Assembly: GCF_000332315.1 (NCBI RefSeq)
Contig: NZ_KB235941.1
Location: forward strand, 785,416 to 849,415
Origin: Prochlorothrix hollandica PCC 9006 = CALU 1027
Lineage (GTDB): Bacteria > Cyanobacteriota > Cyanobacteriia > Prochlorotrichales > Prochlorotrichaceae
Direction of reading: 5' to 3'
DNA: 64,000 bases
Part shown: one piece after another, positions 42,031 to 52,441 of the stretch
How the letters are laid out: each line of letters starts with the position of its first letter
How positions within the stretch are numbered: the first letter of the stretch is position 1
Notes under the pieces: generated by a model
What the model was told of the DNA's origin: nothing
What the model saw: the letters and a program-made list of their open reading frames with translations, nothing else
Database searches by the model: none
Position numbers and translations under genes: made by a program

Positions 42031-45000
42031 ATGTTCACCCAAGTCAAGCCAACCGTGCGCCACATCACGCCGGACGACTTGAACGGTCGCACCCTCGTTA
42101 AGGTGGTCTATGTTGTTCTGGAACCCCAGTATCAAAGTTCCCTCTCCGCAGCGGTGCGGGCCATCAACAAAACCAACCCCGATGTGGCCATTGAAATCAT
42201 TGGCTACCTGATCGAGGAACTGCGCAGCGCCGATAACTACGAAGCCTTGAAGAAGGACATCGCCGAGGCCAATATCTTTATTGCTTCGTTGATTTTCATT
42301 GAAGACTTGGCGGATAAGTTGGTGGAAGCCGTGGCTCCCCACCGCGATCGCCTGGATGCGGCCATCGTCTTCCCCTCCATGCCCCAGGTCATGCGCCTCA
42401 ACAAGCTGGGGACCTTCTCCATGGCCCAGTTAGGCCAATCCAAGAGCGCCATCGGCCAGTTCATGAAGAAGCGCAAGGAGCAGTCTGGCGCATCCTTCCA
42501 GGATGGGATGTTGAAGCTGCTGCGGACCCTGCCCAAGGTGCTGAAATACCTGCCCGTGGAAAAGGCCCAGGATGCCCGTAGCTTCATGTTGGGGCTGCAA
42601 TATTGGCTGGGGGGTTCCGAGGAGAACCTGACCAACTTCCTGTTGATGATCACCGACAAATACATCTTTAAGAAAGAACAGAGTCTGGCGGATCTGAAGT
42701 ACGCCGAGCCGGTGGTCTACCCCGACATGGGCATTTGGCACCCCCTGGCCCCCCAGATGTTCGAGGACATTAAGGAATACCTCAACTGGTACCAGTCCCG
42801 GCGGGATATTGATGGGAAGCTGAAGCGGGAGGATGCCCCCTGCATTGGTTTGGTGCTGCAACGCACCCACCTGGTGACCGGGGACAATGCCCACTATGTG
42901 GCGATCGTCCAGGAGTTGGAGTACATGGGGGCGCGGGTGATTCCCGTCTTTGCCGGGGGTCTGGACTTTTCCAAACCCGTGGATTCCTACTTCTTTGATC
43001 CCCTGAATCCCCACCAGGCCATCGTCGATACTGCCGTCTCCCTCACCGGCTTTGCGTTGGTGGGTGGACCCGCCCGCCAGGATCACCCCAAGGCGATCGA
43101 AACCCTCAAAAAACTGAACCGCCCCTACATGGTGGCCCTGCCCCTGGTGTTCCAAACCACGGAGGAGTGGGAAGAAAGCGATCTGGGGTTGCACCCGATC
43201 CAGGTGGCCCTGCAAATTGCTATTCCTGAATTGGATGGGGCGATCGAGCCGATCGTCATGTCCGGGCGGGACGGAGCCACCGGTAAGGCCATCTCCCTGC
43301 AAGATCGCGTCGAGGCCATCTGTCAGCGGGCGGTGAAGTGGGCCAATCTGCGGGTTAAGCCCAAAGCCGAGAAAAAGCTCGCCATTACGGTGTTTAGCTT
43401 TCCCCCCGACAAAGGGAACGTGGGTACTGCGGCCTATTTAGATGTGTTCGGATCCATCCACCGGGTCATGCTGGCCATGAAGGACCAGGGCTACAGCATC
43501 GGTGAGGTGCCCGACACCCCCGAAGCACTGATGCAGGCGGTGATCCACGATGCCCAGGCCCAGTACGCCAGCCCTGAGTTAAATGTGGCCTACCGGATGC
43601 CCGTGCGGGAATATGAGCAACTGACCCCCTATTCCGAGCGGCTAGAGGAAAACTGGGGACCGCCCCCCGGCCACCTCAACACCGATGGGGAAAACCTGCT
43701 GATCTATGGTCAGCACTTCGGCAACCTTTTCATTGGGGTGCAGCCCACCTTTGGCTATGAAGGGGATCCCATGCGGCTGCTATTTTCCCGATCGGCCAGC
43801 CCCCACCATGGTTTTGCCGCCTACTACACCTATCTGGAGCAGGTGTGGGCAGCGGATGCGGTGTTGCACTTCGGCACCCATGGTTCCCTGGAGTTTATGC
43901 CCGGTAAGCAAATGGGTATGTCCGGTCTCTGCTATCCCGACAGCTTGATTGGCAGCATTCCCAATCTCTACTACTACGCCGCCAATAACCCCAGCGAAGC
44001 GACGATCGCCAAGCGCCGGGGCTATGCCTCCACCATCAGCTACCTCACCCCCCCCGCTGAAAATGCCGGTCTCTACAAGGGCTTAAAGGAACTGAGCGAG
44101 TTGATTGGTTCCTACCAAACCCTCAAGGATGGGAGCCGGGGGGTTGCCATTGTTAACTCGATCTCCGATCAAGCCCGCATCTGCAACCTGGACAAAGACA
44201 TTCAACTGCCCGATGGGGATGCCAAGGACCTGACCCAAGAGGATCGGGATAACTTGGTGGGGCTGGTGTACCGCAAGTTGATGGAAATTGAGTCCCGGCT
44301 CTTGCCCTGCGGTCTCCATGTCATCGGCAAACCCCCCACCCGGGAAGAAGCAGTGGCCACCTTGGTCAACATTGCCAGCCTCGATCGGGAAGAGGACGGC
44401 ATCTGGAGCTTGCCCACCATCATTGCCCGGAGCCTGGGCCGCAACATGGAAGAGGTCTACCGCAATGCGGACAAGGGCATCCTCACCGATGTGGAACTAC
44501 TCCAGGAAATCACCCTGGCCTGCCGTGGGGCAGTGGGTTCCCTGGTCACGGAGCAAACGGACGACGAAGGCCGGGTTTCCCTGCTGTCTCGCCTGAATAT
44601 CTTCGCCAAAAAGGCAGAAAAGCTGGATCCTTGGGTTAAATCGCTCCATGACTCCGGCTACCAGGCTGTGGATGCTGAATTGCTCAAACCCCTGTTTGAG
44701 TTCCTCCAGTTCTGCCTAGAGCAGGTGTGCGCGGACAACGAGCTAGGGGGGCTGCTCAGTGCCCTGGAGGGTCAGTATGTGCTGCCGGGTCCTGGCGGTG
44801 ACCCCATCCGTAACCCCAAGGTGCTGCCCACTGGCAAGAATATCCACGCCCTCGATCCCCAGTCCATCCCCACTACGGCGGCGGTGCAGTCGGCTAAGGT
44901 GGTGGTCGATCGCTTGCTCGATCGCCAGAAACAGGAAAACGGCGGGAACTATCCGGAGACGATCGCCTGTGTCCTCTGGGGCACCGACAACATCAAAACC

Positions 45001-46020
45001 TACGGGGAATCCCTGGCCCAAATCCTCTGGATGGTGGGGGTGAAGCCCATGCCCGACTCCCTGGGGCGCATCAACAAGCTGGAACTGATTTCCCTGGAAG
45101 AACTGGGGCGGCCCCGGGTCGATGTGGTGGTCAACTGTTCGGGGGTGTTCCGGGATCTGTTCATTAATCAAATGGCGTTGCTCGATCGGGCCATCAAAAT
45201 GGCCGCTGAAGCCGATGAACCCCTGGAGATGAACTTTGTCCGCAAGCACGCCCTCAAGCAAGCGGCAGACATGGGCATTAATCTGCGGGAAGCGGCCACC
45301 CGCGTCTTCTCCAATGCCTCCGGATCCTATTCCTCCAATGTCAATTTGGCGGTGGAAAATAGCACCTGGGAAAATGAGGGGGAACTCCAGGAAATGTATC
45401 TGAAGCGCAAGTCGTTTGCCTTCAATTCCGACAATCCCGGTGTCATGGATCAGGCCCGCGACCTGTTTGAGCAGTCCCTCAGCACCGCCGAAGCCACGTT
45501 CCAAAACCTGGACTCGTCGGAAATCTCCCTCACTGATGTGTCCCACTACTACGACTCTGACCCCACCAATGTGGTGGCCGGGTTGCGCAAGGACGGCAAG
45601 AAGCCCGCTGCCTACATGGCGGATACGACGACGGCCAATGCCCAGGTGCGCACTTTGTCGGAAACGGTGCGCCTAGACTCCCGCACGAAAATGCTCAATC
45701 CTAAGTGGTATGAGGGGATGCTCTCCCACGGCTATGAGGGGGTGCGGGAACTTTCCAAGCGCCTGGTCCACACCATGGGCTGGTCCGCCACGGCGGGTGC
45801 GGTGGACAATTGGGTCTATGAGGACGCAAACGAAACCTTCATCAAGGATGAGGAAATGCGCAAGCGTTTGCTGAACATGAACCCCAACTCGTTCCGCAAA
45901 ATGGTAACCACGTTCCTGGAGGCCAATGGTCGCGGCTATTGGGAAACCTCTGAGGAAAACCTGGAACTACTGCGGGATCTCTACCAAGAAGTGGAAGACC
46001 GCATCGAAGGCATCGAGTAA
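42031..46020 (+). CDS. chlH: Magnesium chelatase subunit ChlH
   Basis: ChlH is the porphyrin-binding subunit that, with ChlI and ChlD, inserts Mg into protoporphyrin IX, the first committed step to chlorophyll. The 1329-aa length is standard. Family blocks include [33 protein letters not shown] and [21 protein letters not shown] strong AGAAGGAGAT site precedes the ATG. The gene ends with a good hairpin (46046-46070). Its last 150 bases plus terminator recur, decayed, at 49535-49740, flanking an accessory segment. chlI and chlD are not in the window. Confidence 0.98.
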
Positions 46021-46045
46021 TCTTGCTTTAGCCTTCTAACTCCCC

Positions 46046-46071
46046 ACGGGGGCCAGTCTCTGGCCCCCGTG
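46046..46071 (+). terminator. chlH terminator hairpin
   Basis: ACGGGGGCCAG and CTGGCCCCCGT form an 11-bp stem with a three-base loop 26 bases after the chlH stop. A weak T-rich stretch follows. A mutated version is present at 49715-49740 in the duplicated chlH end. Confidence 0.8.
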
Positions 46072-46187
46072 ATATTATTGTTTGTAGATAATTTGATGTA
46101 AAAGCGCTATGAGTAAGCAAATCAGCGATCAGTACAGTGTTTATGTTGCCCCTGGAATGAGGGGGTTGTATGAAGATGGTTGCCCTG

Positions 46188-46290
46188 TACAGCAACCCTA
46201 AATCAGTTGTAAGGATCTCGACGGCTGAAACCCTTGGTGTGGTGTGCCCCCTCCGGGGGCACACCACACGACCCATTTAGGACTGCTGTA
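46188..46290. mobile_element. TA-flanked MITE (family A), copy 5
   Basis: Starts TACAGCAACCCTAAATC and ends ATTTAGGACTGCTGTA, 103 bp. It lies just after the chlH terminator and its right part is read as the first residues of the following open frame. Confidence 0.8.
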
Positions 46291-46827
46291 GTTATAGACG
46301 AAAGAAACAATGAAGAACGCTTAAATCCTCAGAACTTAGATGACAAAATTAAAATATATGAACGTGAAACACGTGGATGGTTCTTTGCACATGTGGAGGG
46401 TTTACTGAATCAAGGTGGTCAACAAGCCTTTGATAATGGATTTGTAATTCTTATGATATGTGCTTCTTATTTTGAAGCAGTTGAGCAGTACAGAACTGGT
46501 CAATCAAGCTTTGGAAAAACCGGTAAATTCTTCAAAAATTCGATTAAGAGAGTTATCAAGGATGGTAATTTTGATAACTCTGAGCTTAATAATCTCCACA
46601 GTAAGTTTCGATGTGGCTTATTTCATAACGGAATGACTAAAAAAGGTGTGATATTTAATTTTGATTCTGAAAAAGCGATTAAATTTCAGGACTCAATGAT
46701 TATAATTAATCCCCAACGTCTCTTTATTTTAATTGAAGAAGATTTTGATCAATATCTTTATGAGTTAAGAGATACAAGATCTACTACTGTCCGAGAAAAC
46801 TTTAACAGAATTTTTTCCATTACCTAA
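46237..46827 (+). CDS. Unknown protein whose 5' end is derived from a MITE
   Basis: The product (about 196 aa) has a body with KIKIYERETRGWFFAHVEGL, NGFVILMICASYFEAVEQYR and a basic helix FGKTGKFFKNSIKRVI. It is AT-rich, with no domain that I recognise. Between the MITE end (46290) and residue 45 no ATG, GTG or TTG is in frame except one deep in the domain. The first usable starts (GTG at 46237 or 46240, TTG at 46234) therefore lie inside the MITE. Either the element replaced the original start, giving a MITE-coded leader (VWCAPSGGTPHDPFRTAV), or the gene is silenced. The next gene starts 9 bases after its stop. Confidence 0.55.
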   Translation: MWCAPSGGTPHDPFRTAVVIDERNNEERLNPQNLDDKIKIYERETRGWFFAHVEGLLNQGGQQAFDNGFVILMICASYFEAVEQYRTGQSSFGKTGKFFKNSIKRVIKDGNFDNSELNNLHSKFRCGLFHNGMTKKGVIFNFDSEKAIKFQDSMIIINPQRLFILIEEDFDQYLYELRDTRSTTVRENFNRIFSIT

Positions 46828-46836
46828 GAACTCAAT

Positions 46837-47235
46837 ATGGAAACAGCACCTACCGCTAAAGCACAATCTTCTGAGTTAAGCACTCCAGAAGTCTGGGAGG
46901 ATGACGATCTAGAGATGTTGGAGGAGTATGACTTTAGCAATGGACGACCCAATCCGTACTGCGCCCGTTACGCTGCAAACCCAAAGCATCATAAGCCAGG
47001 GATTTGCTTTGTGACGGATAGTGTGGGACGTAAGGTGGGAGTTTTGCTAAATCTGAGTCATTATCAAGAGGTTTGGGAAGAATACTCAAAGGGTGTTGAC
47101 TTGAGTGAGTTTCAGTTTTTGGGTACTCAGTCAGGAGACTATCATGAAGTTTTGTTAGAATTCGATCGGCACCTGGAGCTATGGCAGGGGATTTGTGACG
47201 CAATCATACAGTCTAGAATTGCCAGCAGATCTTAG
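46837..47235 (+). CDS. Antitoxin-like protein
   Basis: The 132-aa product has an N-terminal acidic segment EVWEDDDLEMLEEYDF and SNGRPNPYCARYAANP, resembling small cyanobacterial antitoxins. Then comes GICFVTDSVGRKVGVLLNLS followed by HYQEVWEEY, similar to Phd/YefM-type folds that bind a toxin and DNA. No clear toxin lies next to it: the gene before is an unknown, the gene after is an ATPase. Its last 70 bases recur at 49462-49536, before the duplicated chlH end. The family assignment is tentative. Confidence 0.5.
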   Translation: METAPTAKAQSSELSTPEVWEDDDLEMLEEYDFSNGRPNPYCARYAANPKHHKPGICFVTDSVGRKVGVLLNLSHYQEVWEEYSKGVDLSEFQFLGTQSGDYHEVLLEFDRHLELWQGICDAIIQSRIASRS

Positions 47236-47512
47236 GCTACCAATTTCAGCGCGCAACTTATCCAACATGGTTAAAAGAGGAGCTATAAACCCAAGTGATG
47301 CTCAGATTCTCTCAAAATTCCCAAATTTGTCATGGTTTCCTTAGCTAAGGTCGCTGAGGATCATGATACGTCTGTGATAGAGCTGATTCAGTTCTATATC
47401 GGCTAAGGTTCGCGCCAGCACTTGCAGAACTTAGAAGCGTAAAGCCGATCGCGGCCCGCAAAACTGAGGTATCATAAGCAATGATAGTTAGCCTGCTCTC
47501 AATGATTCCTTA

Positions 47513-48604
47513 ATGCTAAAGAAAATCCATATCCAAAGATTTCGCTGCTTCGAGAATCTTCAGGTTCATCCCTTCTCGCGTCTGAATCTCATCGGTGGCA
47601 AGAATAATGCCGGGAAAACTGCTTTACTTGAAGCCCTCTTCTTCCTCACCACCGGCACTGCCCTAGCTGCCCTACGTTTGAAAGCGGGACGGCGCGAATC
47701 ATCCGAACTGATGAAGCAGATCCCTGATCAAACCTGGATTGGTTTTTTTCATAATCAGGATGCTTCAACCCCCATAGAACTATGTGGCTACGATCAAGAA
47801 CAAAAGGTCAAGTCACTTAGGCTGAGTCTGGAAACGTCGATTGAAGTTTTAATTTCATCAGGTCAATCATCTCTTCATGAAGACTTTCAAGACTTCATTG
47901 AATTTGTCACAACTCATTCTAAACCTCCCTCAGCGTTGGTAGCTACCCTAATACAAGGTGAGAAAGAGCCGCATCAGACTTCTCTAATTGCAACGCGAAA
48001 GGGAATCCTCAATCTACGAGACAGTGATATACCAGATCCATTGATTATTCCTTCTGGCCTAAGAACAGATACTGAGGATCTGACTAAAGCATTTGATCTG
48101 GCGCGGCTTCAGGAAAAAGACGATCTAGTACTTCAGCTATTTCAGATTCTAGATCCTGCCATTGAGAGAATCGAAAGTTTCTCGATCGGGGAACCAAACC
48201 TATATCTAAAACGCAAAGGTCAGCCCAGATTACCCATCTGCCTATTTGGTGATGCCATCAACCGACTGGCAGACATTGCCCTTAAGATTGTCCACCATCC
48301 ATCAAGTGCTATCTTCATTGATGAAATTGAGAATGGTCTTCATTACAGTAACCAGAAAGCCTTCTGGCGGGGTCTCTTTCAACTCTGCCAAGAGCTAGAT
48401 ATTCAGATTTTTGCAACAACCCACAGCTTGGAAATGATCACAGCTTTTACCCAGGCGGGTCTTGAGTCTGAGCCAGAACAGTTTGCCTACTTCGAGCTAG
48501 CCCGTCACGCGAAGACCCAGAAGATTGTTGCAATTCACCGCAATCTCGACACTTTAAACTACACCTTACAGGCAGAGCAGGGTCAGGGAGTTCGGGGAGA
48601 GTAG
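47513..48604 (+). CDS. AAA/ABC-type ATPase paired with a DUF3226 protein
   Basis: The 363-aa protein begins MLKKIHIQRFRCFENLQVHP, typical of SMC-like (AAA15/AAA21) ATPases. Walker A is GGKNNAGKTA at residues 28-37, Walker B is in AIFIDEIENGLHYS, and the switch histidine is in ATTHSLEMITAF. A short middle region lacks a long coiled coil. The DUF3226 gene follows after 4 bases, so they form a cassette. Such ATPase-TOPRIM-type pairs include the PARIS system (AriA-AriB), which triggers toxicity on phage anti-restriction proteins; membership here is not shown. The cassette is AT-rich and lies inside the chlH-flanked segment. Confidence 0.85.
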   Translation: MLKKIHIQRFRCFENLQVHPFSRLNLIGGKNNAGKTALLEALFFLTTGTALAALRLKAGRRESSELMKQIPDQTWIGFFHNQDASTPIELCGYDQEQKVKSLRLSLETSIEVLISSGQSSLHEDFQDFIEFVTTHSKPPSALVATLIQGEKEPHQTSLIATRKGILNLRDSDIPDPLIIPSGLRTDTEDLTKAFDLARLQEKDDLVLQLFQILDPAIERIESFSIGEPNLYLKRKGQPRLPICLFGDAINRLADIALKIVHHPSSAIFIDEIENGLHYSNQKAFWRGLFQLCQELDIQIFATTHSLEMITAFTQAGLESEPEQFAYFELARHAKTQKIVAIHRNLDTLNYTLQAEQGQGVRGE

Positions 48605-48608
48605 AACC

Positions 48609-49304
48609 ATGGCAAATTACTTAATCGTAGAAAGCAAGAATGATCAGTATTTTATTAAGGCTTTGGTGAAGCAGATCAATGCTTCGATCGATCATATTAA
48701 ACTAATTTATATTAATGAGTATGAACCGCTACAAGGTCTTGATCATCAAAAGCTTAAAGATGTCCTCAGCAATCTCAAGGCGGCGGCACAAAGGGGGAAG
48801 GTTGATCGGGTGGGGATCATTCTTGATCTTGACCAAGAAACAGAAGACAACCGATTACAGCTTGTCAACCAGTGCCTTGCTGCTGTTTTTGAGAATACGG
48901 CAGAGCTTCAAAAAACCTGTGAGTTCATTCACCTAGAACAGGAATCACCCGACTTTTCAATTCAGATGGCTTGCTATTTCACTCACGTTCAGGGTCAGGG
49001 AGAACTCGAAACCCTGCTGAAAAGCATCAAAACGAAGCCTTCTCCCTACGCAGACTGCTTACAAGCTTGGCGTGAATGCTTGGCAACACAGGGTAAACCC
49101 ATCAGTGATAAGGAATTTGATAAACTTTGGGTTGCTCAATACATTCGTTGGGACACCTGTACCCGTAAAGAACGGAAGCAAGCCGAAAGAAAATGTAGTA
49201 TGGCCGCTTTTAAGTATGTGATGGAAGATAAGACCGATATTTGGGATTGGAGTCATGCCGCCCTAGACGGACTGAAACAATTTTTGCAGTTATTTTCAGA
49301 GTAA
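48609..49304 (+). CDS. DUF3226-family protein, TOPRIM-like nuclease candidate
   Basis: The 231-aa protein starts MANYLIVESKNDQYFIKALV, with Glu8 where TOPRIM folds have their metal-binding Glu, and GIILDLDQETED with D73 and D75. This supports a TOPRIM-type metal site. Later blocks MACYFTHVQGQGELETLL, KEFDKLWVAQYIRWDTC and KQAERKC are typical of DUF3226 proteins as I recall them. It is downstream of the ATPase with a 4-base gap, and its ATG follows GGGGAGAGTAG. It would be the effector of the cassette; an RNA or DNA target is not known. Confidence 0.8.
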   Translation: MANYLIVESKNDQYFIKALVKQINASIDHIKLIYINEYEPLQGLDHQKLKDVLSNLKAAAQRGKVDRVGIILDLDQETEDNRLQLVNQCLAAVFENTAELQKTCEFIHLEQESPDFSIQMACYFTHVQGQGELETLLKSIKTKPSPYADCLQAWRECLATQGKPISDKEFDKLWVAQYIRWDTCTRKERKQAERKCSMAAFKYVMEDKTDIWDWSHAALDGLKQFLQLFSE

Positions 49305-49461
49305 CCAAGGTCAGCTATAGCCATCCTCTAAACCTCTCAAGGGATGGGAAAGTTGATGCGGTTTTGGGGGTCGTTTGATCCTGCATTCCGCAGGGCAGGA
49401 TTTGAGCAAGTTCCAGTTTTTGAGGGATGGGTAAGGACAGCATTGTGCGGTCTTTTTGGAG

Positions 49462-49536
49462 TTCGATCGGCACTTGGAACTATGGCAGGGAATTTGTGAG
49501 GCGATCCTACCGTCTAGAATTGCCGGTCGATCCTAA
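49462..49536 (+). pseudogene. 3'-end remnant of the antitoxin-like gene
   Basis: The 75 bases from 49462 match 47160-47235 (TTCGATCGGCACTTGGAACT, then GTCTAGAATTGCC), with scattered substitutions. Only the last third of the gene is present, so it is a relic. Its right end joins directly to the chlH remnant. Confidence 0.8.
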
Positions 49537-49740
49537 GCGTCTGCTGACCATGAACCCCAACTCGTTCCGAAAATGGTGACGACGTTCCTGGAGGCCAATG
49601 GTCGCGGCTATTGGGAAACCTCTGAGGAAAATCTGGAACTACTGCGGGACTTCTACCAAGACGTGAAAGACCGCATCGAAGGCATCGAGTAATCTTGCTC
49701 TAGCCTTGTAACACCCCATGGGGGCCACTTTCTGGACCCC
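49535..49740 (+). pseudogene. chlH 3'-end duplicate
   Basis: The stretch matches 45862-46068 of chlH at most positions: AAGCGTCTGCTGACCATGAA, GAGGCCAATGGTCGCGGCTA, TGGGAAACCTCTGAGGAAAA, then GGCATCGAGTAATCTTGCTC and a mutated copy of the terminator. One base is missing (TTCCGAAAATGG for TTCCGCAAAATGG), so the frame is broken. With the intact end it forms a direct repeat about 3.5 kb apart. Confidence 0.9.
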
Positions 49741-49802
49741 ACTCTCCACGTTGTTACGACCACCGTAGACACCTCAGCCCATTTTTGATAATATTGTCTT
49801 GA

Positions 49803-49900
49803 GGGCACCTCGAAAAATCTAAATTTTCGCCCAGTGACCCACGTAAAATCAGGGTTGTGGCGGGCGGCTTCGCCTCCTGCCACAATTAATCGAGGTGCCC
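49803..49900. mobile_element. GGGCACCTCGA inverted-repeat element (family B), copy 3
   Basis: The 98-bp unit has ends GGGCACCTCGA and TCGAGGTGCCC. TTGA lies directly before and directly after, which may be a 4-bp target duplication. It separates the chlH remnant from the next ATPase gene. Confidence 0.8.
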
Positions 49901-49932
49901 TTGAGAGATCTATTCCTAAATAATTAAATTAT

Positions 49933-51444
49933 ATGCATCTTAAAAAAATTGAAGTCCATAACTTTAGAGCATTAAGAAATATCGAAATCGATTTTGAGCT
50001 TGAATTGCATCGGCGTATTTTTCCTGTTGGCAGCCTTAATGGAGGCGGTAAAAGTACCCTACTCCAGTTAACTTTTATTCTACTGCACTGTTCCGTGAGT
50101 CAGGATCCTGATCAATTAAATTTTGTCAAGAATCTACTGTCTAGTTTTCGAGTCGGAACCAGTGATAGCTTGCAGGAGCTGGCAGCATTCACCCTGGTTG
50201 AGAACAAGAAAGAATATTGTATTCGATTCTATGCCTGTCAAGACACATTTATTAGAACATTTCTACCTAGTGAGATTGATGAACTTTCCAGTACCAGTTC
50301 ACTTTGTTTTTCCAGTGTTGTTGACTTGCAGAAAAATAAGGAGAAAATACAAAATTTAGAATCTGAAATTGAAGCCTTAGAAAGGAGTATACGTCAGTTT
50401 GATAAACTATCAATGATTGAAGATCCAGAGATACGCCTTAACAGAATTAGTCTTGAGCTGTCTGAACTTAGAGGAATTGGTATACGGTTGCCACGACGAA
50501 CCCTCAGAGCTGCCGGATTCACGACATCATCTCAGTATACTAAAAGTGTACCCCTGGAAGATATTCAGGAAGAATTACAAGATCTATTGGATATTAAGAA
50601 AATCAATCTATCAACGGCACAAGCTGAAGATGATAAATTGGGAACTGCTGTTGATCTTGTCAATCGTTGTCTAAAAGAGAAGAAGTTAAACTATGTGACT
50701 AACTACTATGTTAGTCAGCAAGAAACAGATGAATCACTACTGTATAAAGTTGATGGGTTTGATAAACAAGATGCCCATGATTTATTAAAATCTATTGCAA
50801 GCAAGATATTCCTAGCCGCACCTTCAACCCATATCTATTTATTTTTGTCCCAGGAAGAAAGATTGTCGATTTTCAAGACCCAAGCCGCTAAGGAGTCACG
50901 CTATTTTCAAGCCTTAGATGATGTCAAAGCTAAGCTTGATATCTTTTTAAGTACTTACGATTTTTTTGAAACTCGCTTTTTAATTGATTTATTTACGCAA
51001 GCTAGAGATAAAGATTTCCAGTATGCCATTGAAAAGCAAGGATCCTATGGGGATAACTACCAAAATCTTTTGTCTGAAATAAATTCTATTCTCCCTGGCA
51101 AGTCTATCAATGTTACAGCCGACCTGTCTCAGGTGACTTTTACGATGACGATCGACTCTGAGAAGCATAGTATTTTGCCCGAAGACTTAAGCCATGGTGA
51201 GCTAAAAAAGCTTAACATTTATACTTGGTTAAGAACCTACGGTATCAAGGATGCGATCGTCCTGATGGATGAGCCTGAAATTGCACTACATCCAGACTGG
51301 CAATATAATTTACCTAATGACTTGTGGGATTGGGAGCCAAGCAACCAGTACATTCTTGCAACCCATTCCTATGAGATTTGTCAGGCTCTCACCCCCCAAA
51401 ACATTAAGGAAATCGAACCTAAACTCTTAAAAGATGAACATTAA
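49933..51444 (+). CDS. SMC/ABC-type ATPase paired with a TOPRIM-like protein
   Basis: The 503-aa protein starts MHLKKIEVHNFRALRNIEID. Walker A is GSLNGGGKSTLL (residues 33-44). The middle (about 130-230) is a coiled coil (KEKIQNLESEIEALERSIRQ). An ABC signature is in LSHGELKKLNIYTW, Walker B in AIVLMDEPEIALHP and the switch histidine in YILATHSYEIC. All nucleotide-binding parts look intact. It overlaps the next gene by 11 bases, so the two are translated together. The codon and base composition is AT-rich compared with chlH. It resembles the ATPase halves of OLD-, Gabija- or PARIS-type systems, but no domain places it clearly in one. Confidence 0.85.
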   Translation: MHLKKIEVHNFRALRNIEIDFELELHRRIFPVGSLNGGGKSTLLQLTFILLHCSVSQDPDQLNFVKNLLSSFRVGTSDSLQELAAFTLVENKKEYCIRFYACQDTFIRTFLPSEIDELSSTSSLCFSSVVDLQKNKEKIQNLESEIEALERSIRQFDKLSMIEDPEIRLNRISLELSELRGIGIRLPRRTLRAAGFTTSSQYTKSVPLEDIQEELQDLLDIKKINLSTAQAEDDKLGTAVDLVNRCLKEKKLNYVTNYYVSQQETDESLLYKVDGFDKQDAHDLLKSIASKIFLAAPSTHIYLFLSQEERLSIFKTQAAKESRYFQALDDVKAKLDIFLSTYDFFETRFLIDLFTQARDKDFQYAIEKQGSYGDNYQNLLSEINSILPGKSINVTADLSQVTFTMTIDSEKHSILPEDLSHGELKKLNIYTWLRTYGIKDAIVLMDEPEIALHPDWQYNLPNDLWDWEPSNQYILATHSYEICQALTPQNIKEIEPKLLKDEH

Positions 51445-52441
51445 TATCAATGCATTTTGTAAGTCTATTTTAAGTGAGAGAGCTTACCGAAATCGTCCAA
51501 TCATCTTGTGTGAAGGTCAAATCACAGGGTCTTTAGTAGATAAGAATTCAAAGCAACATGGCCAACAACGACGGTATACACGCTCACCCAGCACTGCAAA
51601 AGAACAGGATTCTGACTTTTATAAAAAGTGTTGCCCTCGTTGGTGGCAAACTAGTGGCACCATCAAACTGCCTGAGTTCATTAATGCTGGTAGTCGTAGT
51701 CAGGTTTTAAGAGCTTTCTTTGAACTTCTTGAGTTACATAATCAAAGTCCTAATGATTCATATCTAAACCCTGATAGGCTGTTTGCTCTAGTGGACTTAG
51801 ATATTCAAAACCAAAGTCTACCTGTACATCCAGAGGGTTTCTCTTATAATACTTTTGAAAACATTGAGGAGATTTTTAAAAGTCTATATTCTCAAGGCAG
51901 GTTTCAGGGATTAGCCAACTACATGAGTCATATTTTAGTGACGGGTTTGATTCATAAAGAGGCTTATTTTCTGCTCCCTCAACTCCAAGATCTACTCACT
52001 CTCTATGACGTTCAATATAGTAATGCCGCGATCGATCTCTATAAGTTATATCCAGAAATCGCAGAAGGGTTAGAGGATGATAAAGATCTAAAGAAGAATC
52101 TTATTCATATTTCTCATCGTTTAAATGACTGTTGTAATCTTGACTGTAGCAATTTATCCCAGCTTAAGCAGTCTTGGCTCAGAGCCTATCACGATGATCC
52201 CCAAGATCATCAATCTCTCGTGACTCTACTGTTCATGATTAAGAAAATTAAGCCATACTGGGAAAAAGTACATTCAGCTCTTGGATATGATCCGTCTAAG
52301 TTTCAGGATCAGATATGCGATATGATTGCTCAATTTTATCGAAACCGATATCGGAATAAAGATGAAGTACAAGGAGAGGTACCCGCAGATCATATTCCTT
52401 GCCTTTTTAGAACAATTTACCGCATTGCTTATGAACCTTGA
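51434..52441 (+). CDS. Divergent TOPRIM-like protein, partner of the ATPase
   Basis: The 335-aa protein has RPIILCEGQITG with Glu27 and, after about 95 residues, LFALVDLDIQNQ with D121 and D123, then YNTFENIEEIF with further Glu residues. This order is that of TOPRIM/DUF4435-type nucleases (E, DxD, then a later acidic pair). The spacing is unusually long and an insertion rich in Arg/Lys (QQRRYTRSPSTAKEQ) lies in between. The C-terminal 180 residues are helical and not recognised. Translation is coupled to the ATPase by an 11-base overlap. I regard it as the effector of a candidate defence cassette; the assignment rests on motif order only. Confidence 0.6.
   Translation: MNININAFCKSILSERAYRNRPIILCEGQITGSLVDKNSKQHGQQRRYTRSPSTAKEQDSDFYKKCCPRWWQTSGTIKLPEFINAGSRSQVLRAFFELLELHNQSPNDSYLNPDRLFALVDLDIQNQSLPVHPEGFSYNTFENIEEIFKSLYSQGRFQGLANYMSHILVTGLIHKEAYFLLPQLQDLLTLYDVQYSNAAIDLYKLYPEIAEGLEDDKDLKKNLIHISHRLNDCCNLDCSNLSQLKQSWLRAYHDDPQDHQSLVTLLFMIKKIKPYWEKVHSALGYDPSKFQDQICDMIAQFYRNRYRNKDEVQGEVPADHIPCLFRTIYRIAYEP

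Follow-up and report, generated by a model that had tools for sequence, protein, structure and literature searches.

How the end of a housekeeping gene came to be present twice, with a set of accessory genes between its two copies, is the question raised by the chlH locus of the cyanobacterium Prochlorothrix hollandica PCC 9006 = CALU 1027. The gene chlH, encoding magnesium chelatase subunit H, is followed there by several small accessory genes and then by a second copy of its own 3' end and terminator. The locus was analysed in a window of 64,000 nucleotides (nt) of contig NZ_KB235941.1 (positions 785,416 to 849,415, forward strand), to which the coordinates below refer, and chlH pieces lacking the 5' part of the gene are called tails. 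The comparisons with other cyanobacteria support the view that the chlH 3' end is a recurrent insertion place, marked by spare tails. With a probability of about 0.6, the second chlH end of the window is the scar of horizontally acquired DNA for which chlH homology served as an anchor, the other end having been closed by an illegitimate joint.

Within the window, chlH is intact (42031..46020, forward strand, an open reading frame (ORF) of 1329 amino acids (aa)) and constitutes the anchor gene of the locus. It is followed in order by its terminator, a 103-bp repeat, a gene without family match, an antitoxin-like gene referred to as gene B, an ATPase gene, a DUF3226 gene, the second chlH end with its terminator, and a second pair consisting of an ATPase gene and its partner. 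Base-by-base comparison of the functional first copy of the 3' end and terminator (45862..46068, forward strand, 207 nt) with the second, frame-shifted copy (49535..49740, forward strand, 206 nt) gave 92% identity, the second copy being one base shorter, which agrees with an earlier description made without database searches (hereafter the sequence-only reading) of a duplication with substitutions and one deletion. The coding part of 159 nt contains 9 substitutions (5 synonymous and 4 not, counted by hand) and 1 deletion in copy 2, and this single-base deletion breaks the reading frame. In the whole genome, these two sequences are the only matches to the chlH end (E <= 0.001), and a chance repeat as the source of copy 2 was ruled out by the E value of 3.7e-80. 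The homology extends 48 nt beyond the chlH stop codon, through the terminator, and ceases there, and the modules behind the two copies differ, so that the same DNA or genes behind copy 2, as expected of a simple tandem duplication, were not found in the window.

The 5' side of copy 2 is also informative about its composition. Upstream of it lies a degraded duplicate of the last 140 nt of gene B (47098-47237 compared with 49399-49538, forward strand, 76% identity), the stop codon of which overlaps the start of the chlH tail. This worn end, the single further partial copy of gene B in the genome, is also recognizable at the protein level (66%, residues 83-132). Because it stands directly upstream, copy 2 is a composite of an antitoxin-like tail and a chlH tail, a fusion that was overlooked in the sequence-only reading.

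Spare chlH ends recur in other cyanobacteria. A DNA match to the chlH 3' end is present in 34 of 39 genomes searched, that of P. hollandica included. A tail was defined as a 5'-truncated match of at least 38 nt that reaches the 3' end, with E <= 1e-6, within 4.9 kb downstream of the gene, and counting was performed in those 63 named chlH loci for which 4950 nt or more of downstream DNA were available, taken from the best 80 of 549 confirmed matches. The search for extra chlH 3' ends that the sequence-only reading had proposed was successful in 10 of these 63 loci, versus 1 of 228 other ORFs of at least 250 aa in the same loci (Fisher p 1.1e-6, for loci that are mutually related and of which two, L128 and L137, share an identical 20-kb sequence from a single assembly). 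Shorter or internal chlH pieces also lie downstream in L101 and L153 (too short), L160 (beyond 4.9 kb), and L093 and L100 (internal fragments), which were under the threshold and excluded. In control stretches of 400 kb each, a spare end was found for 1 of 123 ORFs in another cyanobacterial genome, G131 (a peptidase U32-like gene), and for 1 of 134 in the P. hollandica genome itself, the latter case being a 98% local duplication.

Comparison of the chlH end with its own downstream DNA, conducted in 108 of 138 loci (in the remainder, chlH lay on the opposite strand or the DNA downstream of it was too short), revealed same-strand tails in Scytonema NIES-4073 (three), Calothrix NIES-4105 (two), a Prochloraceae metagenome-assembled genome (MAG), Nostoc CMAA1605, N. 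spongiaeforme, a Calothrix MAG, Baaleninema, Amazonocrinis, Symplocastrum, and Nostoc FACHB-973. A search with a ChlH C-terminal peptide in 386 genomes of the phylum identified G131, in which an intact chlH is accompanied by two extra same-strand chlH 3' ends, 10 and 15.6 kb downstream. The per-genome counts of this peptide census were dropped, as other proteins (presumably CobN-like paralogues) were matched too, and DNA searches were substituted.

The edges and joints of the tails bear on how they arose. Measured from the stop codon, the 5' alignment edges lie at -399, -175, -168, -158 (the window), -124, -123, -96, -90, -61, -60, -43, and -40, a spread that speaks against a fixed crossover site; no fixed crossover core is common to the tails, the window alone giving a single edge. 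On the 3' side, homology ends at most 7 nt from the stop codon in 8 of 10 counted loci and goes past it in L090 and L103, and the terminator is reached by homology in the first tail of G131 and in the window. Since homology mostly ends near the stop codon, the DNA behind a tail is mostly unlike the DNA behind chlH. The distance from the preceding cargo stop codon to the tail is 0 nt in the window (behind the worn gene B), 2 nt behind Uma2 in L156, 4 or 8 nt behind HigA in L105, L226, L223, and L224, 48 and 50 nt behind XisI in L107 and L151, 48 nt in L094, 52 nt in L123, and 55 nt behind a RAYT-like gene in L103. The tails of L225 (about 78 nt) and of G131 (behind a repeat) are not close to a cargo stop codon.

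Joints between HigA and chlH exist in more than one form. On the HigA side, the start of the tail lies at -176 in L105 and L226 and at -123 in L223, L224, and L157, the latter form being perhaps a later deletion of the former. In L225, the tail appears only after about 78 nt of HigA flank, and because 52 of these nucleotides match the flank in the tail-less genome G318, the L225 joint is regarded as independent. At least two independent HigA/chlH joints are thus present. The letters common to the flank and chlH at -176 (GAAGAAATGC) are suggestive at most, because tail-less HigA flanks also carry such starts, beginning with AAGAAAT in 4 of 18 rows and with AAGAAAATG in 1 of 18. Joints with little shared sequence, as illegitimate joining would leave, are present in the related loci.

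The provenance of several tails can be traced by comparison with chlH genes of relatives. The final 90 nt of the G682 chlH gene share 95.6% identity with those of its congener G318, and the tail of G682 shows 79-81% identity without gaps or 82-85% with gaps (the figure depending on gap treatment) to the chlH of its own genome and its congeners and 93-95% to that of the Nostoc locus L158. Because the tail is near Nostoc chlH and far from its own and its congeners' chlH, it is foreign, the chlH end of G682 being native. The two tails of G131 encode unbroken ChlH ends and have their best chlH matches in different relatives (98.2% in G265 and 97.3% in G407). Tails in related loci thus appear to be of foreign origin in G682 and, by a less strict measure, in G131, where either chlH or a tail may be the native copy because chlH is mosaic throughout the genus. 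Within this genus, the 3'-most section of chlH displays the lowest concordance (0.35 versus 0.53-0.90). The tail of G686, read by eye, looks mosaic, with parts resembling the chlH of its own genome and parts resembling that of others.

Tails are also found on other contigs. The tail end, terminator, and AlkB gene of G131 recur on another contig of G179 (96.8% over 873 nt), where a chlH tail comprising some 30 coding nt and the terminator (L220:2434-3436) precedes the AlkB gene and a cut following gene and is joined to a GCGATAGTGAAGCGC repeat; no chlH is present on this contig within the stretch read. In Nostoc FACHB-973, AlkB and the next gene stand directly behind chlH (82%). A second contig of Spirulina sp. 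CS-785/01 (L119:9638-10459) contains a 632-nt chlH 3' end within a 273-aa ORF, the start of which is of other origin. The same kind of scar is present at another core gene: in G131 (L242:3296-4190), a gene that we take from its sequence to be peptidase U32-like is followed by an acetyltransferase-like gene and, 65 nt behind, by a 69-nt spare peptidase 3' end.

Between chlH and the tails, toxin-antitoxin, Uma2, restriction-modification, and XisHI genes are found, as determined from 57 cargo proteins (4 from the window and 53 from 14 other loci, one being the chlH-tail ORF of L094). Among the 25 of 30 Pfam families listed for these proteins are HTH_3 (7), Uma2 (6), HigB (4), C5 methylases, XisI, AlkB-like 2OG-Fe(II) oxygenases, HicAB, and similar families; Y1_Tnp, DUF697, and AAA_13 are three of the other five. 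The ten cargo proteins listed in full add to the main families only DUF697 and an IS200-like match below the cut-off. A scan of the proteins standing first or second downstream of chlH, made in 69 named loci, covered 133 of 135 proteins (one long protein of L132 and one overlapping the tail of L156 were omitted), with GUN4 (5), Y1_Tnp (6), XisI (4), AIPR (4), C5 methylase (3), XisH (3), and TIR (3) among the 25 of 120 families listed, together with Uma2, which as a raw count makes up 28 of the 133 proteins (loci L084-L163). No integrase is among the families listed in either scan. In the genus of G131, the first gene behind chlH is Uma2 in 4 of 14 genomes, HigBA in 3, and another gene in 7, and the downstream gene content of the congeners G318, G704, and G682 is likewise variable. 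As a separate observation, chlH of G597 (L227:5822-9820) is divided between two ORFs (1089 and 211 aa), which may represent an interruption or an assembly error.

In the mechanism proposed here, an acquired fragment comprising accessory genes and the 3' end of a donor's chlH would pair with the resident chlH region. Homology within chlH would resolve one end. The other would be closed by an illegitimate joint with little or no shared sequence, in many cases a short way behind the final gene of the module. The outcome would be the order chlH, module, spare chlH tail, and next module, and repeats of the process would stack modules with tails between them. Being merely the anchor, chlH would remain intact. 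Such a process would require RecA and DNA uptake and would make an integrase unnecessary, and later recombination of tails with chlH could excise or move modules; one tail looks mosaic. We infer the anchor role of the chlH homology, the order of events, the participation of RecA, and entry by natural uptake; the mechanism is extended to the window by analogy with the related loci. Of the possibilities named in the sequence-only reading, repeated exchange without an integrase fits best, in the form of homology-anchored illegitimate recombination and not of plain homologous exchange. A further proposal is that the spare tail acts as a homology arm, a module with a chlH tail at its right end entering any similar chlH by two crossovers inside chlH and adding to the locus without replacing anything. 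This proposal is rather doubtful; if true, toxin-antitoxin and defence genes would have a cassette system that works without an integrase and takes the end of a housekeeping gene for its socket.

Several observations weigh against the acquisition of the tails by homology-anchored illegitimate recombination, and some of them favour another origin. The closest of the genomes searched is related to P. hollandica only at the level of the class, so the tail of the window may have come from outside or may be a local copy that has become worn; both origins are compatible with its substitutions, of which 5 are synonymous and 4 are not. When these substitutions were polarised with the help of 138 further chlH ends, among which some genomes are represented twice, the result did not separate a local from a foreign origin; three of the four amino-acid-changing states are absent from those ends or occur once among them. 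The HigBA of G682 is also present, at 96%, in the tail-less G318, with Uma2 in the position of the tail, which indicates that the G682 tail was not acquired together with HigBA. The 3'-end recombination signal did not reappear in a wider set of 70 named chlH genes (0.74 versus 0.67-0.85), a single-query search of the Nostocaceae yielded tails in 4 of 109 genomes and an internal fragment in 1 more, and wear may have shifted or spread the alignment edges of the tails. In L101, Uma2 flanks a short tail (L114 is perhaps similar, with Uma2 on both sides or behind), and L090 carries three tandem tails of about 160 nt each with terminator. Local duplication could yield the former arrangement, and both are in favour of an origin in which the chlH end and the following genes were duplicated in place, one gene set was lost or replaced, and a worn tail remained. 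Both modules of the window contain an ATPase, and homology extends into the terminator, as such an origin would also have it. The homology that stops within 7 nt of the stop codon in 8 of 10 counted loci, the foreign tail of G682, and the G131 tails matching different relatives argue against it, as do the window's two ATPases, which can be aligned with each other over only 48 residues (33%) versus 92% identity of the tails. Local tandem duplication is considered a rather improbable alternative.

The island model of the sequence-only reading held that an integrase, lost or supplied in trans, targets the chlH 3' end and restores it, as occurs at tRNA genes. Part of it stands: the chlH 3' end is a recurrent insertion place marked by tails, with content that differs among congeners. 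The target is indeed the 3' end of a conserved gene, chlH is intact, the tails are repeated in direct orientation at the far border, and some loci have arrays. A common 5' edge, located at a repeat, is moreover shared by the two tails of G131, a point that also belongs among those adverse to homology-anchored illegitimate recombination. Site-specific integration itself does not hold up, as the edges vary from -40 to -399 without a common core, one toxin-antitoxin gene has at least two independent joints, the G682 tail is foreign at a native chlH end, tails lie on other contigs, the same pattern is seen at the G131 peptidase gene, and no integrase was found among the families listed (25 of 30 for 57 cargo proteins and 25 of 120 for 133 proteins behind chlH). 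This makes an integrase-driven island very improbable. Capture driven by repeats or transposons, in which small interspersed repeats and IS200-like RAYT transposases move modules with flanking pieces of chlH, would be consistent with Y1_Tnp in 6 of 133 proteins behind chlH, with the two small repeats that frame the segment in the window, and with the two G131 tails and the G179 tail, each of which adjoins the end of a repeat with the letters GCGATAGCGAAGCGC or GCGATAGTGAAGCGC. Among the 13 tail starts listed, however, such a repeat stands only at the two of G131, and only that of L103 lies directly behind an IS200-like gene; capture of this kind is considered quite improbable.

The two repeats of the window merit description. 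A 103-bp palindromic repeat with TACAGCA.../...TGCTGTA ends (46188..46290, forward strand), identified by a repeat search and by its ends and palindrome as resembling a miniature inverted-repeat transposable element, lies behind the chlH terminator and occurs in at least 45 other places of the genome (747 first-look candidates, 40 scored), many copies being 98-100% identical. A second small inverted-repeat element (49797..49906, forward strand) has 4 other genomic places listed, each overlapping a copy of the 103-bp element or at most 13 nt away from one. In the window, the former is situated just inside the left end of the accessory segment and the latter just outside its right end, 3.5 kb apart, and this separation suggests an insertion of the segment between the two.

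The four genes between the two chlH ends are as the sequence-only reading described them, with G+C contents of 32, 46, 45, and 43% versus 58% for chlH, and family scans of their proteins likewise confirmed that no integrase lies inside. The first of them (46291..46827, forward strand, 32% G+C) has an uncertain true start because the 103-bp repeat abuts it. Gene B (46837..47235, forward strand, 132 aa) owes its antitoxin-like label to the sequence-only reading. The AAA_15/AAA_21 ATPase (47513..48604, forward strand; Pfam 1.3e-22) matches PADLOC PDC-M38A (AbiLi-like) at 6.1e-53 and the OLD-family structure 6p74 at 7.3e-5, and the adjacent DUF3226 protein (48609..49304, forward strand; Pfam 1.1e-22) matches PADLOC PDC-M38B at 1.5e-9, so that the two genes constitute a candidate PDC-M38 defence pair. 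Past the scar, the next module begins with an ATPase (49933..51444, forward strand) related to PtuA/AriA in PADLOC and to AriA in PDB (1.4e-7), the gene of which overlaps by 11 nt that of a 335-aa partner (51434..52441, forward strand); this arrangement (49933-52441) is a possible new ATPase-effector defence pair. The first gene, gene B, and the 335-aa protein gave no family match in Pfam, NCBIfam, or PADLOC. When the six accessory proteins of the window were compared with the collected loci, the sole match was a relative of the second ATPase in L113, located there upstream of chlH. A plasmid relative of the right border was dropped as a candidate, with no match in the plasmid collection.

Comparable gene arrangements have been described in other bacteria. 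In the orphan toxin genes of Rhs and contact-dependent inhibition (CDI) systems, displaced 3' ends stand in strings behind a constant 5' part. The chlH loci resemble them in these strings of displaced 3' ends; unlike those genes, chlH is no polymorphic toxin, its 3' end is conserved, and its spare tails are without evident use. A study of Vibrio cholerae, which mentions Rhs/CDI as well, proposes homology-facilitated illegitimate recombination, without a specific integration site, for the orphan immunity-gene arrays of the type VI secretion system (T6SS) (PMC5361080). Stepwise modules behind a conserved anchor, with alleles from different donors, are a likeness to these arrays, whereas there a module replaces the toxin gene or its end and chlH is an intact housekeeping anchor, and the chlH cargo consists of toxin-antitoxin, restriction-modification, and ATPase defence genes (PMC5361080). 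As in dusA integrase islands, a conserved protein gene is the insertion place, and unlike them the chlH loci show neither a fixed crossover core nor an integrase among the families listed (PMC4482086). With core defence hotspots, as outlined in the abstract, the chlH loci share variable defence content at a fixed chromosomal place, the gene-tail scars being an extra feature by that abstract (PMC10250203). Since an integrase was looked for among the families listed and a fixed crossover core among the tails, and neither was found, the locus is not classed with the integrase-borne islands; it may tentatively be placed with the orphan arrays formed by homology-facilitated illegitimate recombination, which it resembles in the way it works. 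No report of the chlH 3' end as a hotspot was found among the papers listed in searches of one open library of literature.

Tails of gene ends bear on the manner in which defence and toxin-antitoxin genes enter fixed hotspots that lack an integrase, and they provide a readable record of donors, joints, and the order of insertions. Should chlH tails prove general in cyanobacteria, they would allow the acquisitions of any genome to be tallied and placed in sequence.

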